Assembly (NCBI GenBank): GCA_013213985.1
Contig: JABSSP010000114.1
Location: 1-10,260, forward strand
From: Candidatus Babelota bacterium
Lineage (GTDB): Bacteria > Babelota > Babeliae > Babelales > Vermiphilaceae
Length of the DNA: 10,260 bases
Direction: 5' to 3'
Part shown: one piece after another, positions 2,774 to 10,260 of the stretch
How positions within the stretch are numbered: the first letter of the stretch is position 1
Layout of the letters: each line of letters starts with the position of its first letter
Program-made: the position numbers and the translations under genes
The notes under the pieces: generated by a model
The model's database searches: none
What the model saw: only the letters and a program-made list of their open reading frames with translations
Told to the model about the DNA's origin: nothing

Positions 2774-2778
2774 AAGGA
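2774..2778 (+). promoter_or_regulatory. Ribosome binding site fixing the long start of the UDP-glucose dehydrogenase
   Basis: AAGGA lies 6 nt before the ATG at 2785. The internal methionine at residue 31, where a normal dehydrogenase would start, has no purine-rich site before it (cttgcatgcaaaaat). The leader of about 27 residues is therefore likely to be translated. Confidence 0.65.
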
Positions 2779-2784
2779 TAATTA

Positions 2785-4092
2785 ATGAAGCTCAAAACCC
2801 TACTTAAAAATAAGACTCTGATTCTCTCTGTATTGCTCAGTATTACTGCATATCATTCTCTTGCATGCAAAAATATGTGCGTCATCGGAGCAGGATACGT
2901 TGGACTTATCGCTGGGTCTAAATTTGCTCAGATGGGAAATAATGTTATCTGTACAGATATATCACAATCAAAAATTAATGATCTTAACAACGGAATAAAA
3001 CCCATTTTTGAACCTGGCTTACAAGCAATAGTTAAAGAAGGTATGCACCAAGAAAAACTTTTTTTTACAACTGATGTTGAGCATGCCATACAAACAGCTG
3101 ATATTATTATTGTTGCCGTTGGAACCCCAATGGGCAAAGATGGGAGTTCAAATATTTCTGCACTTATCAATGTGATAGAAACAATCGCAAAAAACATGCA
3201 AGGCTACACAGTTATTTGCATTAAGAGCACGGTTCCTATTGGAACTAATAAGAATGTACTGTTACAACTTGATGAACATTGTGCGCCAGGTGCATTGTAC
3301 GATCTTGTTTTTAATCCTGAATTTTTGCGTGAAGGATCTGCTTTAAAAGATTTTAGTATTAATCCTATTGTACTCGGAAGTAATTCTCAAAAGGCACTCG
3401 ACATAATGACAGAATTATATTCGCCGCTTATTGAACGGGGATGCCCTTTAGTGCACACCGATTTGACAACAGCCGAAGCATTTAAATATACGTGGAACAG
3501 TTTTAGAATGACACGAATCATGTTTGTAAACGAACTGGCATGTCTGTGTAACACCGTCGGAGCAGATATTGAAACACTTGTTACAAGTATGAGCATGAGT
3601 GAACAATCAATGCCAACGAAAAATCTTAAACCAGGACCTGGTATTGGCGGTTCTTGCTTCCCCAAAGATAGCCGTGCACTTGCACATACAGCACGTAAGG
3701 TAGGAGAACGTTTCTGCATATTAGAAGCTGTTATAAAGGCAGATCAACTCCATAAACAAAAAATGATCACAACTATTTATGATTTGATGGATAATAACGT
3801 ACGTGGTAAAAAAGTTGCTATATGGGGATTATCATTTAAAGCAAACACAGATGACATTCGTGATTCAGTCGCTATTAAGATTATCAAGAAACTACTCGGT
3901 AACGGTGCAATTATACAAGCATATGATCCACAAGCAATGAAAAATATGCACGCTTTAATTCCTGATATATGTTATTGCACTTGCGCAGAAAAAGCCCTTG
4001 AAGATGCTGATATTTTAGTGATTGTAACTGAATGGCAAGAATTCACTCACGTCGATCTTAAAACAATAAAAACAAAATGCGTCAACCTATAA
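2785..4092 (+). CDS. ugd: UDP-glucose 6-dehydrogenase with N-terminal signal peptide, C-terminus frameshifted
   Basis: This enzyme oxidises UDP-glucose to UDP-glucuronate with two NAD+. The NAD-binding Rossmann motif is GAGYVG (residues 35-40). Next come VAVGTP (110-114), substrate-loop EFLREG (179-184), K234 and N238 of the central domain, and catalytic C291 in GPGIGGSCFPKD. The UDP-binding domain contains WGLSFKANTDDIRDS (347-361). These residues suit UDP-glucose better than GDP-mannose dehydrogenase. Two things are odd. First, residues 1-27 form a Sec-type signal: lysines, a hydrophobic core (TLILSVLLSIT) and a cleavage site at SLA/C. The fold proper starts at residue 31. Second, the frame ends at CVNL after residue 431, while the expected last 33 residues continue in another frame to 4178. 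Restored, the protein would be about 464 aa, or 437 without the leader, the normal family size. It follows atpG by 42 nt. Confidence 0.9.
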   Translation: MKLKTLLKNKTLILSVLLSITAYHSLACKNMCVIGAGYVGLIAGSKFAQMGNNVICTDISQSKINDLNNGIKPIFEPGLQAIVKEGMHQEKLFFTTDVEHAIQTADIIIVAVGTPMGKDGSSNISALINVIETIAKNMQGYTVICIKSTVPIGTNKNVLLQLDEHCAPGALYDLVFNPEFLREGSALKDFSINPIVLGSNSQKALDIMTELYSPLIERGCPLVHTDLTTAEAFKYTWNSFRMTRIMFVNELACLCNTVGADIETLVTSMSMSEQSMPTKNLKPGPGIGGSCFPKDSRALAHTARKVGERFCILEAVIKADQLHKQKMITTIYDLMDNNVRGKKVAIWGLSFKANTDDIRDSVAIKIIKKLLGNGAIIQAYDPQAMKNMHALIPDICYCTCAEKALEDADILVIVTEWQEFTHVDLKTIKTKCVNL

Positions 4093-4178
4093 TAATGGAC
4101 ACACGCAACTTACTCAACCCCCTGCAAGTCAAAAATAGTGGCTTTACCTATGTTGATTTAGGCAGAAAGCATTATTAA
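4077..4178 (+). pseudogene. Displaced C-terminal tail of the UDP-glucose dehydrogenase
   Basis: In the frame one base back from the dehydrogenase, these codons read MRQPIIMDTRNLLNP, then a stretch ending GFTYVDLGRKHY and TAA at 4176-4178. This is the family's conserved C-terminus (pattern: P-hydrophobic-D-x-R-N-L-x-x-P, later a G-F-x-Y-x-x-x-G-R block). It directly continues the UDP-binding domain of the upstream frame. One extra A in the runs at 4068-4072 or 4074-4077 would restore a single reading frame. The sequence is too well conserved to be an old relic, so the lesion is recent, a sequencing indel, or a programmed -1 shift. Confidence 0.85.
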
Positions 4179-4183
4179 AAACA

Positions 4184-5662
4184 ATGAAAACTAAATATAG
4201 TTTACTGACGAGTATCTTCTTATTCTTTAGCATAGTATCAAATAATGAAACACCCTTGGTGATTTTAATCTGTTCGTATAACAACGAACCGTGGATTGAA
4301 AAAAACTTAGATTCAGTATTTTGCCAACAGTACGAAAACTTTAGAGTCATTATTGTTGACGACGCATCTACAGACAAAACATTACAAAAATATAAAGAGT
4401 ATATTCACAATCATAATCTAGAAAAAAAAGTAACACTCATTCACAATAAACAACGTTGCAAAAAACTTAAAAATGTATACCTTGCTATTCATGAGCACTG
4501 CCATGACGATGAAGTGGTCGTACAAGTTGATGGCGATGACTTTTTAAACAATACTCATGTATTTGAGCGCATTGACTACGAATATCAAGATCCACACGTA
4601 TGGCTCACCTATGGTCAATTTAGACCCGTCCCTTTAACACAACACACTGGAAGACTAAAAATAAAACTATGCTCAGAAACTCCTGAAAAAATAATCGAGC
4701 AAAATAGTTTTAGAAAAGATAAATGGCGCTACACGCATGTACGAACATTTAAAGCTTGGCTCTTTAAATGCATTAGATTGCAAGATCTTATCTGTGATAG
4801 TGTTGTACCAGGCTTCGAAGGGCAGTTTTTCCCCGCATGCAACGATTTTGCTATCATGTTCCCCATGCTTGAAATGTGTCACTACAACTTTCGGTTCATT
4901 CCTGAAATTTTGTATGACTATAACATTGAAAATCCACATACTGGTTTCCGTAAAGAATTACAAACAATGATCGCATCAGCAAAAAATGTTCGCAAGCTTC
5001 CGCCCTATCAACCACTTGAAAAACCAACTAAAAATAAAGTAAATACCATTGTAAATGCTCAAGCAGATATTATTATTTGTTCAAAAGCACCAATAAAAAA
5101 TTTGCAACAAAAAATTCGTGATATTACACATAACATATCGGGGTTCGGTTCGATCATTGTACTTCACCAAGCCAATAACAAAACTCAGCATGAATGTAAA
5201 AAGAAACTCCAATATTTTAATAACATAACGTATGTTGGGCTGCCATCGAAAAGAACTCAAAAACATCTTGAGTCATACCTCATTGCAGAACTAAAAAAAT
5301 CACTTAATAAGTATGTTGTTTTTTGTACCGATACAAGTTCCACAACAAACCAATTTGATTGTAATCAGTGCATACAATGGTTAGAAAAAACATATGCACA
5401 TGCATGTTACATGGGATCAGCATTTCCAAAAACAATTAATCATCAACATTTACACAAGAACATCTATGCATGGAAGTTTAGTCAGGATCTAAAAAAAAAA
5501 ATAAAACCGTTTAGTAATATGACACTTTACCGAAAAAACGAAATTGTAAAAATTTTACAAAAGCAAAAAACAAGAGATATTAAAAGCTTTGTACGAAAAT
5601 TAGAAAGGGTACCTATTGATCAGAATAAGGTTGGACTGTTGTTAAGGCAAGAAAATAATTGA
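4184..5662 (+). CDS. Family 2 glycosyltransferase with N-terminal leader and an unassigned C-terminal half
   Basis: The N-terminal half is a GT-A, family 2 glycosyltransferase. It has LVILICSYNNEPWI (25-38), then IIVDDASTDKT (56-66) for nucleotide binding. The metal-binding DxD-type motif is VDGDD (115-119), and RTFKAWLF (187-194) and CNDFAIMFPMLEM (219-231) lie around the acceptor site. It would transfer a sugar from a nucleotide-sugar donor to an unknown acceptor. Residues 1-19 (MKTKYSLLTSIFLFFSIVS) are a hydrophobic leader resembling a signal peptide or anchor. No later ATG precedes the catalytic core. Residues 290-492 have alternating strand/helix character (ADIIICS, SIIVLHQ, KYVVFCTDTSS) and could be a second, degenerate GT-A-like fold; I do not recognise it. 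The start is 6 bases beyond the dehydrogenase tail, with no clear ribosome binding site, suggesting coupled translation. Confidence 0.87.
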   Translation: MKTKYSLLTSIFLFFSIVSNNETPLVILICSYNNEPWIEKNLDSVFCQQYENFRVIIVDDASTDKTLQKYKEYIHNHNLEKKVTLIHNKQRCKKLKNVYLAIHEHCHDDEVVVQVDGDDFLNNTHVFERIDYEYQDPHVWLTYGQFRPVPLTQHTGRLKIKLCSETPEKIIEQNSFRKDKWRYTHVRTFKAWLFKCIRLQDLICDSVVPGFEGQFFPACNDFAIMFPMLEMCHYNFRFIPEILYDYNIENPHTGFRKELQTMIASAKNVRKLPPYQPLEKPTKNKVNTIVNAQADIIICSKAPIKNLQQKIRDITHNISGFGSIIVLHQANNKTQHECKKKLQYFNNITYVGLPSKRTQKHLESYLIAELKKSLNKYVVFCTDTSSTTNQFDCNQCIQWLEKTYAHACYMGSAFPKTINHQHLHKNIYAWKFSQDLKKKIKPFSNMTLYRKNEIVKILQKQKTRDIKSFVRKLERVPIDQNKVGLLLRQENN

Positions 5663-8031: not shown

Positions 8032-9216
8032 ATGCGTCAATCTTATGTGTATTTAGTAAGTTGCTTACTAAGTTTCTCTTTCAATGTTTGTGCAAAAAAT
8101 TCAAAAACGCAAGAGCATCATGCCGATGTTAGCTGGACTGTTGTTGGCGCTGGGCCAGCGGGCATTGCAACTATTGGCGTACTGTTAGAACTTGGAATTT
8201 CAGAAAAAGATATTGTGTGGGTTGATCCAAAATTTGATGTGGGCAGACTTGGTGAATATTATTATAATGTACCCGGTAACGCAGTAACAAAAAATTATGT
8301 TTTTTTTGTGCAACAATGTCGTGTTTTTAATGAATTTCCATCGCAAGCACGCGACAAATTATTTGAAGACAGTGATTCATGCGAAGAATGCATACTCGGA
8401 TTCGTTGTTGACCCATTACTTGATATAACTAATCATTTGCGTACAAAAGTAACAAGTGTGCAAGACTCTCTTGTATCTCTTAAGCGCAATGAACAACACG
8501 AATGGCATTTACAATTAAATAATAGTTCATTCACATCGCACAATGTTGTATTGGCAACTGGAGCGCAGCCAAGAAAGCTCAATTACCCATGTAAAAATTG
8601 TATTTCTTTAGACTTGGCGATTGATAAAAATAAACTTACTCAGCTGGTAGATACACAAAGCGATACGATTGCCCTTATTGGTGGTGCGCACTCAGCAATT
8701 TTAATTCTTAAGTATCTAAGTGAAATTGGCGTACCCCGTATAGTAAATTTTTATAAACATCCATTAAGATATGCCTATGATATGGGAGACGGTAATCCAA
8801 CTCACTTTAATGGACTAAAAGGAGCAACTGGACGTTGGGCCTACAATGTTTTAGAAAAAAATTCTCCAGCGCAAATAGCACGACTCAAAAACAGTCAAGA
8901 GGCAAGAGAAGCATGGCTCCCTCTATGCAATAAAATTATTTACGCTATAGGTTACACAAGAAATCCTGTGCCATTAGCAGAAGGCCATACAAGCCAAGTA
9001 GATTATAACAGTTCAAGTGGAGAAATTTCATCACGTTTATTTGGTATTGGCATTGCATTTCCTGAGCAAGTGATTGAAGACGGAAAAAAAGAAGCTATGA
9101 TAGGCCTCATTGATTTTATGTTGTATGCTCAGCGAGTTGCCCCTGAATGGATCAAAAAACTTCACAGTAGACATATTGAATTACTCAACAATATACTTAC
9201 CATCAGCATATTATAA
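8032..9216 (+). CDS. FAD/NAD(P)-dependent oxidoreductase with signal peptide
   Basis: This is a two-dinucleotide-domain flavoprotein (pyridine nucleotide-disulfide oxidoreductase / flavin monooxygenase superfamily). FAD binding is shown by VVGAGPAG (37-44). An ATGAQPRKL motif (175-183) and a second Rossmann motif IGGAHSA (216-222) for NAD(P)H follow. A late IIYAIGYTRNP segment (302-312) also fits. The substrate cannot be read from the sequence. GRLGEYYYNVPGNAVTKNYV (71-90) is a distinctive conserved-looking block. Residues 1-21 are a Sec-type signal ending VCA/K. The strong ribosome binding site leaves little doubt that it is translated. Two CxxC pairs (C117/C120 and C187/C190) lie outside the classic disulfide-reductase position. 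The gene is monocistronic: promoter candidate before it, terminator after it. Confidence 0.85.
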   Translation: MRQSYVYLVSCLLSFSFNVCAKNSKTQEHHADVSWTVVGAGPAGIATIGVLLELGISEKDIVWVDPKFDVGRLGEYYYNVPGNAVTKNYVFFVQQCRVFNEFPSQARDKLFEDSDSCEECILGFVVDPLLDITNHLRTKVTSVQDSLVSLKRNEQHEWHLQLNNSSFTSHNVVLATGAQPRKLNYPCKNCISLDLAIDKNKLTQLVDTQSDTIALIGGAHSAILILKYLSEIGVPRIVNFYKHPLRYAYDMGDGNPTHFNGLKGATGRWAYNVLEKNSPAQIARLKNSQEAREAWLPLCNKIIYAIGYTRNPVPLAEGHTSQVDYNSSSGEISSRLFGIGIAFPEQVIEDGKKEAMIGLIDFMLYAQRVAPEWIKKLHSRHIELLNNILTISIL

Positions 9217-10260
9217 AAATTTAAGAGGGAGAGTTTAGTGCTCTCTCTCTTTTTTAAGCAAGTTTCAATTTTTTTTAAAACCTTGTTAACTATGATCACT
9301 AAGGCTCCGTCTCCGATTAGGTTTGCTGCAGTCCCAAATGGATCAAGCAATACATACAAAGACATAACAACTGCAATCATTTCTTCAGTAAAACCAAATT
9401 GTGATGTGAGCAAAGGCATCATGACAATAATACCACCACAGGGTAAACCCGCGACTCCAAACATTGCTATACAAAAATAGGGAATAAAAAAAAAGATAAG
9501 AAATAAATGAAGGCAAACATCCTCGAAAAATGTACATGGTTGCTAGCGATAACATTGGGGTTCCAACACTGTCACTTAATAGATGTACATTTGCCATGAT
9601 AGGCATAGCCATTTAAGCAAGCGGCGCATTGCCCGTGTTTTTTGTAGCGGCACCTACACTCACCGGTATTGTTGCAGTGCTCGACATCGTACTAAACGCG
9701 GTTAAATAACTTGGCAATGCAATTTTAATTGATTTAAGCGCTTTAGAAAATGAAAACCCTTCCGCAAGAAAATAAATCCATGCCAAATATACAATCTGCA
9801 TACCAATAATAAGCACACACGTTGCACCATATTGACGGAATAACAGTGCAAAAGTTCCTTCGCATCCTATTTTTAACATGAAACCAAAAACATAAAGGGG
9901 TAACAGTGGAATAAAAAAAGTATAAATTGCTTTTTCAACGTATGATTTAAATGCTTCTAATCCTTTGTCTACCACAGGAACGCGCCAAATGAAAAAATAA
10001 TACCAAGAATAACTGCGTTAAAAAGTGCATACACCGAACTCACACTAACCCAGCCTGGCATGTTAAATTCAGTAAACGGTATCAAGGGTGTTCGAGGAAC
10101 CAAGGAAACTACTTCTTGCGTCCCTGCTAAACATGTAGCCGCCGATAAACCGAGCCATGCAGTAAAATAAGATGATAATGCAACAAACGCATTAGAAAAG
10201 ACAATAAAACCTATAAGTACCGCTAAGGCTAAAGGAGCACCTTTTTTAAATGATAAAATA
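9162..10260 (-). pseudogene. Sodium:dicarboxylate/amino-acid symporter (DAACS family), degraded and cut by the window edge
   Basis: Read leftward, the remains of a multi-spanning membrane symporter can be followed for about 366 codons. From the right edge, one frame gives PLALAVLIGFIVFSNAF through ...GIIFSFGA and stops at 9969-9971. The protein continues one base back with VPVVDKGLEAF to FSTMSSTATIPVSV and KNTGNAPLA. A TAA at 9613-9615 interrupts it, and the same frame resumes with MAMPIMANVHLL. In the A9 run at 9486-9494 it shifts again to FGVAGLPCGGIIVMMPLL and FGTAANLIGDG. The STSSS-like loop, HP2-like hairpin and NxxGD motif are family hallmarks. R397 of GltPh is replaced by glycine, and N401 and D405 are kept. 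The last frame overruns the terminator and overlaps the oxidoreductase gene by 55 nt, so the native stop is probably lost. The N-terminus lies beyond 10260. Confidence 0.88.
9223..9255 (+). terminator. Intrinsic terminator of the FAD-dependent oxidoreductase gene
   Basis: An 11-bp stem (9223-9233 with 9241-9251, one G-U pair) closes a 7-nt loop and runs into a T tract at 9251-9255. It begins 7 nt after the stop codon. The leftward symporter pseudogene reads through the same DNA. Confidence 0.85.

Follow-up and report, generated by a model that had tools for sequence, protein, structure and literature searches.

In bacteria, the making of nucleotide sugars is regarded as a task of the cytosol. 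The window considered here, i.e., the whole stretch of 10,260 nucleotides from contig JABSSP010000114.1 of a Candidatus Babelota bacterium, encodes a UDP-glucose dehydrogenase (UGDH)-like enzyme followed by a glycosyltransferase (GT), each of which carries a Sec-type leader ahead of its catalytic core. Close homologues with names come from 'Candidatus Babeliales bacterium' (P0172, P0210 and P0217) and 'Candidatus Dependentiae bacterium' (P0316), and the organism is probably a member of the Babeliales/Dependentiae that lives as an intracellular parasite of protists, as do the Dependentiae isolates (PMC6561590, PMC4378268; these and all other papers are cited here from excerpts).

A close described system is the Sec secretome of the Dependentiae Chromulinavorax destructans (PMC6561590) and Babela massiliensis (PMC4378268), which, going by the named homologues, belong to the same phylum and export many proteins with signal peptides by Sec. 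The difference lies in the exported classes named, i.e., proteases, nucleases, hydrolases, ankyrin and other repeat proteins and ubiquitin- or SUMO-related proteins, of which the ankyrin proteins are inferred to reach the host cytoplasm (PMC6561590, PMC4378268). The excerpt of PMC6561590 does not mention "UDP-glucose" or "glycosyl", while that of PMC4378268 does not contain "sugar" and has "glycosyl" once, in the name of a DNA glycosylase. Searches of open PMC papers, subscription papers and supplements being outside their scope, gave no earlier account of Dependentiae that export nucleotide-sugar enzymes, nor did the terms looked up in the excerpt of PMC12172432.

Two further systems are similar in other respects. 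Chlamydia trachomatis is also intracellular and exports enzymes of sugar-polymer (glycogen) metabolism, with UDP-glucose of the host serving as their donor outside the cytosol of the bacterium; however, type 3 secretion takes these enzymes into the vacuole lumen for glycogen synthesis, and the excerpt names no exported enzymes that make nucleotide sugars (PMC4829429). The giant viruses PBCV-1 and mimivirus, which infect algae and amoebae, bring their own GDP-mannose dehydratase (GMD), GMER (also named Fcl), hyaluronan synthase and GTs into the host cell, and most PBCV-1 GTs are predicted to lack signal peptides (PMC4691112, PMC9614988). The viral genes are translated in the host and export is unneeded, whereas the Dependentiae would come to a comparable state through added leaders. 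A functional UGDH of PBCV-1 has reportedly been described, going by the title of a paper cited in PMC4691112. By analogy, the set of leadered enzymes described below resembles the Chlamydia and giant-virus systems in its working and belongs to neither.

We consider it probable (about 0.68) that Babeliales/Dependentiae send a working UGDH and GT, as part of a clade-wide set for sugar activation and transfer, across the inner membrane by Sec. The leaders, their conservation, the catalytic residues, the gene company and the genes for export and nucleotide import are all seen directly in the sequence. The dehydrogenase part of the window is composed of the following features:

2785..4092, + strand: UGDH-like open reading frame (ORF), 435 aa as read; PF03721, PF00984, PF03720 and TIGR03026 over cut-off
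2774..2778, + strand: Shine-Dalgarno-like AAGGA, 6 nt upstream of the dehydrogenase leader start; match length 4, spacing 6
2785..2865, + strand: dehydrogenase Sec-type leader, residues 1-27; rule-based scan, extension in 12/12 family UGDHs, window included
3655..3657, + strand: Cys291 codon (GGSC motif); Cys invariant in 59/59 leadered homologues
4093..4178, + strand: last part of the dehydrogenase C-terminus, out of frame with 2785-4092; compared with intact P0001

A first-pass annotation had placed export-type leaders ahead of both catalytic cores, and this was borne out, with lysines and hydrophobic cores in both proteins and domain matches that begin at residues 30 (UGDH, in a profile search with the three Pfam domains) and 27 (GT). 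The UGDH leader contains four Lys residues, a 10-residue hydrophobic core (mean Kyte-Doolittle 2.61) and a possible cleavage site after A27. The AAGGA that the same annotation saw 6 nt before position 2785 is present, and the alternative starts at ATG codon 31 and TTG codon 17 have no Shine-Dalgarno match. The protein scores 398.8 bits with TIGR03026 (cut-off 189.8) and 383.1 bits with the NCBIfam UDP-glucose 6-dehydrogenase (TuaD) equivalog, which is under the cut-off of 700; the nearest solved chain is a UGDH, and the substrate may be UDP-glucose. Cys291 is taken to be the catalytic Cys from its role in known UGDHs. Ten positions that we likewise take to be catalytic or cofactor-binding (GxGxxG, Thr, Glu, Lys/Asn, Cys, Asp, Lys and Arg) are kept in 59/59 leadered UGDHs, except for one G37S. 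The reading frame of the window UGDH breaks near the end, such that the final ~30 residues are found in another frame at about 4093-4178, while the database cluster P0001 is an intact counterpart of 464 aa with 430/431 aligned residues identical. A sodium:dicarboxylate symporter gene (PF00375) at window positions 9162-10259 on the - strand is also in pieces in different frames; together, the two interruptions suggest a contig with assembly errors or decay.

The GT follows directly on the same strand:

4184..5662, + strand: GT2-family glycosyltransferase, 492 aa, two GT-A-like domains; PF00535, model pLDDT 90.8, fold matches
4184..4240, + strand: GT Sec-type leader, residues 1-19; rule-based scan, leader in 109 of the best 120 database homologues
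4529..4540, + strand: DGDD motif, residues 116-119, first GT-A domain; all three Asp (D116, D118, D119) unchanged across 70 aligned sequences that include the window
5039..5659, + strand: second alpha/beta domain, about residues 286-492; structure model, relative of a separate leadered ~300-aa protein

PF00535 matches at 65.5 bits (cut-off 23.3). The leader has two Lys residues, a hydrophobic core of 2.31 on the same scale and a possible cleavage site after S19; no Shine-Dalgarno match was found at the start at 4184, nor at TTG codon 25 or GTG codon 26. The protein to which the second domain is related is encoded at L068:6471-7385 (BLASTP E 8e-12). The nearest folds are those of glycosaminoglycan synthases, with UDP-GlcUA-bound K4 chondroitin polymerase (K4CP) as the top match by Z. 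K4CP and Pasteurella heparosan synthase 2 share GT-A domains with the window GT, two of them in the full-length matches, but differ from it in domain arrangement, with 12-20% identity and a root-mean-square deviation of 13.9 over both domains; the sequence match to heparosan synthase covers residues 19-70 only (E 7e-5). The conserved catalytic residues of the UGDHs and the DGDD aspartates of the GTs make these leadered enzymes look functional. The window's genome has one more GT2 copy, G000:C154:4436-5202, with several in-frame stops, so that the GT2 family appears expanded and partly decaying.

The comparisons covered 51 genomes, i.e., the window's genome (G000; 886 kb, 176 contigs), those of 28 relatives from its family and 22 from other families of the order, and the loci read were the best 30 matches of each search. 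Loci without a core match were left out of the leader scoring (7/30 for Fcl, 1/30 for GMD and 2/30 for ManC), L201 was left out of the neighbourhood counts and of the careful UGDH tree, and P0116 was left out of the larger, quick tree. The scoring undercounts leaders, because an internal Met was chosen for Fcl L163 and for ManC L135 and L136, which appear leadered on reading. Among the GT loci 25/30 pass the strict rule, and the remaining five comprise three with hydrophobic starts by eye, one wrong ORF and one unclear case.

A UGDH of the window's type is present in 12/29 genomes of the family, the window's included. All 12 (the window and 11 relatives) carry the extension with a hydrophobic core, as compared to 0/7 homologues read from other families, so that a result which the first-pass annotation had named as able to refute its proposal, i.e., relatives without the leader, was not obtained. 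A stricter charge rule is satisfied by 11/12, L004 failing because of an acidic residue in the n-region. Among the best 120 database homologues, counted with the database start sites and including the window's own clusters, a hydrophobic leader is found in 60 UGDHs (56 have none and 4 a non-hydrophobic extension), in 109 GT2s (1 none, 10 other) and in 74 GMDs (44 none, 2 other). A wider search in 101 genomes of the phylum yielded 14 new UGDH loci, of which six are leadered (families f3, f11, f13 and f19), seven are leaderless and one is unscorable. A scan of named genomes for the UGDH gave one match only, an ordinary leaderless enzyme from Nanoarchaeota.

In a careful tree of the UGDH cores, in which the positions of the long branches L031 and L199 are uncertain and the bootstrap had not settled, the leader label needs 3 changes as compared to a shuffled mean of 12.9. 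In the larger quick tree 9 changes are needed (shuffled mean 23.1), where the label denotes an extension of at least 14 residues and hence takes in four non-hydrophobic ones. A single origin of the leader was considered and is not supported by these numbers of changes. The leadered UGDH of G094 (L209) is nested within a leaderless clade with support 100/100, which points to a separate gain of the leader in a second dehydrogenase lineage. The gene adjoining L209 encodes a leadered GT4; the two may have gained their leaders together.

The gene company of the UGDHs differs with their leader status. Neighbours of 18 leadered UGDHs are themselves leadered in 29/53 cases, while the corresponding number for 14 leaderless UGDHs is 6/34 (p 7e-4; per locus p 5e-4, in tests that, like those below, ignore shared descent). 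The leaderless UGDH clusters of the sister families contain the same enzyme family, with neighbour ORFs that are GT4-like by eye, but the UGDH and most neighbours lack leaders. The first search gave 19 UGDH loci, and these divide by the presence of GT2 in the genome: every one of the 12 with a leader comes from a GT2-positive genome and every one of the 7 without from a GT2-negative genome, the GT2-positive genomes being hand-typed from a search result (E below 1e-20). GMD (p 0.001) and Fcl (p 0.03) track the leader status of UGDH likewise, ManC less clearly (p 0.055). The pairing of UGDH and GT recurs in related genomes, as the first-pass annotation had suggested should be looked for: a GT2 relative of the window GT is found within a few kb of the UGDH in 6/11 family relatives (G006, G017, G018, G019, G022 and G027), while in the other five the two reside on different contigs.

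That annotation had also proposed a secreted two-step modification system. The conserved leaders on enzymes with intact catalytic motifs agree with the proposal in part, but the two-step system was drawn too small, as the pair belongs to a larger leadered set. In the fetched loci, leaders were found on 17/21 family members of GMD vs 1/8 others, on 12/17 vs 1/11 mannose-1-phosphate guanylyltransferase-like (ManC-like) proteins and on 14/19 vs 1/4 GDP-fucose synthase-like (Fcl-like) proteins. In G018, genes for a ManC-like protein (254.7 bits, while the bifunctional model has a cut-off of 372.95), a GDP-fucose synthase (482 vs a cut-off of 500), GMDs (one over the cut-off at 581, the second a match of 537), GT2, GT6 and a GT32-type transferase (also over the PF12919 cut-off, across 39 residues) are found near the leadered UGDH, and all are leadered. 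The window's genome harbors leadered Fcl and GMD genes side by side with strong Shine-Dalgarno sites, and its second UGDH, GT2s, two GT10 fucosyltransferase-family genes and an FkbM methyltransferase are also leadered. Across the set, the transferase types with leaders are GT2, GT4, GT6, GT10 and GT32-type. The leadered UGDH of G058 is directly adjoined by a UDP-glucuronate decarboxylase with a leader of its own (nearest solved chain 2b69, E 1.5e-79), which suggests UDP-xylose as a further product there.

Other leadered proteins were seen in passing. L210:14541-16481 (G090) encodes a complete leadered acetate-CoA ligase, over the NCBIfam cut-off, which is apparently another exported enzyme of central metabolism. 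In the window's genome, the leadered GMD and Fcl have a leadered thioredoxin-fold protein (L114:2619-3185, - strand) as a neighbour.

An export route for such a set can be outlined from the gene content. Signal peptidase I (PF10502) is found in 51/51 genomes and a secretin (PF00263) in 48/51, G000 included in both cases, where the secretins of type II systems and type IV pili were not told apart; in B. massiliensis the excerpt gives a type II system as the sole secretion system detected (PMC4378268). Taken together, these components make delivery to the host cytosol possible. TLC nucleotide carriers are encoded in 48/51 genomes. Because nucleotides must pass the outer membrane to reach such carriers, a nucleotide-free periplasm is doubtful, and for a nucleotide-importing bacterium in host cytosol the first-pass annotation need not be right that a periplasm offers no UDP-glucose or NAD+. 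A periplasm that contains host metabolites is therefore as good a candidate for the site of action as the host cytosol.

From these features we infer translocation, compartment, substrates and target of the leadered enzymes as follows. Sec would carry UGDH and GT, as working enzymes, over the inner membrane. UGDH would make UDP-glucuronate; in relatives the exported set would also yield UDP-xylose, as well as GDP-fucose via the ManC-like, GMD and Fcl enzymes, and exported transferases of the types listed above would pass the activated sugars on. Outside the cytosol the set would find UDP-glucose, GDP-mannose, NAD+ and GTP of the host. One possible site is the host cytosol, reached by a second export step; the other is a periplasm into which host nucleotides pass through the outer membrane. 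The window GT, with a fold nearest to that of glycosaminoglycan synthases, may draw on UDP-glucuronate for a glycan that is assembled on the surface of the bacterium or on molecules of the host. The broader proposal is that leaders, placed ahead of complete genes for ManC-like, GMD, Fcl, UGDH, UXS and many GT proteins (more than once in the case of UGDH), have moved nucleotide-sugar synthesis and glycan assembly out of the cytosol. GDP-fucose, UDP-glucuronate and UDP-xylose would then arise and be consumed in the host cytosol, or in a periplasm supplied by the host, with GTP, sugar phosphates and UDP-glucose of the host as starting materials. Such a system would be the bacterial counterpart of autonomous glycosylation in giant viruses and would form glycans on the surface of the parasite or alter those of the host; this proposal is tentative, and we give it somewhat below even odds.

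A number of observations weigh against export of the set. Leaders were called by simple rules (n-region charge and hydrophobic core) rather than by SignalP or Phobius; the strict rule passes 75/183 ORFs in ten sampled stretches of the relative G022 and at times passes the first strand of a Rossmann fold at a true start, e.g., in L083:17163-18467. The UGDH type is found in 12/29 family genomes only, the association tests disregard shared descent, and the modeled GT fold likeness gives no donor. Steps within one genome are also mixed: G011 and G016 have a leadered ManC-like protein but leaderless GMD and Fcl, G025 has a leadered ManC-like protein and a leaderless GMD, and G017 has one leadered and one leaderless GMD, a leaderless Fcl and a leaderless GalE-like gene (by eye). 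ManC matches are under the curated cut-off of the bifunctional model in 51/51 genomes, and Fcl is over its cut-off in 3/51 only. GalU-like matches occur in 50/51 genomes, 12 of them over the curated cut-off and those of G003, G007 and G030 being fragments only, which makes it probable that the bacterium produces UDP-glucose itself, in its cytosol. The mixed steps and the leaderless GalU imply that whole pathways are not exported in every species. The argument that UDP-glucose must come from the host because the bacterium cannot make any was rejected on the GalU-like matches; a PF01704 search was silent, also in controls, and hence uninformative. In G017 the two GMD copies lie in one cluster (L079: 9783-10994 and 12033-13136), one leadered and the other not.

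A leader as such is common in this group, C. destructans having a predicted signal sequence on 44% of its coding sequences (PMC6561590, excerpt); the puzzle is the presence of leaders on enzymes that elsewhere start at the fold. No leader was found on 29 distinct housekeeping control proteins, chosen by author-selected motifs in the fetched DNA, nor on the 6 GalU-like proteins read.

The leader could also be an uncleaved N-terminal anchor (N-in, C-out) that tethers the enzymes to the periplasmic face of the inner membrane, where they would glycosylate the bacterium's own envelope with host nucleotides that have passed the outer membrane, nothing being delivered to the host; we consider this unlikely. 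Signal-peptidase-like sites number 23 vs 18.5 in shuffles for UGDH, 29 vs 27.6 for GMD and 39 vs 27.1 for GT2, i.e., the enrichment is modest and clear for GT2 alone, which speaks for an anchor in UGDH and GMD, against one in GT2, and counts among the points against export; a claim of cleavage for the UGDH and GMD leaders was rejected for this reason. An anchor would also fit the charge distribution, as the n-region charge exceeds that after the core in 47/59 UGDHs, 80/101 GT2s and 46/74 GMDs, in agreement with the N-in rule, and the periplasmic nucleotides implied by the TLC carriers. The UGDH leaders of L010 and L012 end in Gly-Cys, lipobox-like by eye, and both may be lipoproteins, a further point for an anchor. 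The hydrophobic stretches, however, have a median of 12-13 residues and a 90th percentile of 16-17, and stretches of 12-17 residues are short for a membrane anchor.

That the enzymes are cytosolic, with leaders that are mis-called starts or act as a tether to the inner face of the inner membrane, and that UGDH and GT work on a capsule or envelope polysaccharide of the ordinary kind, is very improbable. The window UGDH does have an ATG at codon 31, GalU is leaderless, and leaderless UGDH, GMD and Fcl are found in sister families. In addition, the leadered Fcl proteins L164, L160, L168 and L169 keep a Met near the start of the leaderless ones, as if the leader had been put before a complete gene; dual starts are possible for these proteins, and a second, leaderless form could be made. 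Against a cytosolic location, the Shine-Dalgarno match stands at the UGDH leader start and none is found at codon 31, and 9/11 family relatives have no start codon at the place where leaderless homologues begin, i.e., 4-9 residues ahead of the GxG motif, while in the exceptions a Shine-Dalgarno match is missing there. The pooled ratio of nonsynonymous to synonymous change (pN/pS) in nine pairs of related genes is 0.56 for leaders and 0.22 for cores, rough ratios given the near-saturated synonymous sites. Signal peptides change fast, and the leaders, whose hydrophobic character is kept despite this divergence, look coding though fast-changing. The separate gain of a leader beside a leadered GT4 is a further point against a cytosolic location. 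An artefact of start assignment was rejected on the alternative-start signals, the starts in relatives and pN/pS.

Decay or repurposing, in which activity was lost after export and the proteins act as binding proteins, or in which the window genes are decaying, is most improbable, since the UGDH frame break and the fragmented transporter gene at 9162-10259 would fit it but the catalytic positions (bar the one G37S), the invariant DGDD aspartates, the intact cluster P0001 and the core pN/pS of 0.22 do not.

If export by Sec is correct, it would constitute a new route by which an intracellular parasite exploits host nucleotides, i.e., by exporting sugar-activating enzymes together with their transferases, and a convergence with giant viruses. 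It would also offer an explanation, open to testing, for the way in which Dependentiae form a coat or change the glycans of the host; lipopolysaccharide genes were not seen in Chromulinavorax, according to the excerpt (PMC6561590). In this phylum, enzyme family is to be treated with caution as a guide to localisation.

Elsewhere in the window, one more leadered gene is found:

8032..9216, + strand: FAD/NAD oxidoreductase with leader, beside a RadA-like gene (RadA by eye); PF07992, leadered relative L078:7633-8778
8032..8094, + strand: FAD oxidoreductase Sec-type leader, residues 1-21; rule-based scan, Shine-Dalgarno match 5, spacing 7

The end of this leader after A21 was read by eye, the first possible site given by the script being after residue 16. 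The window ORFs for AtpG, a YacP-like protein, the by-eye RadA, TsaE and a pseudouridine synthase have no leader. The relative at L078:7633-8778 also adjoins a RadA-like ORF, with leadered GTs nearby.

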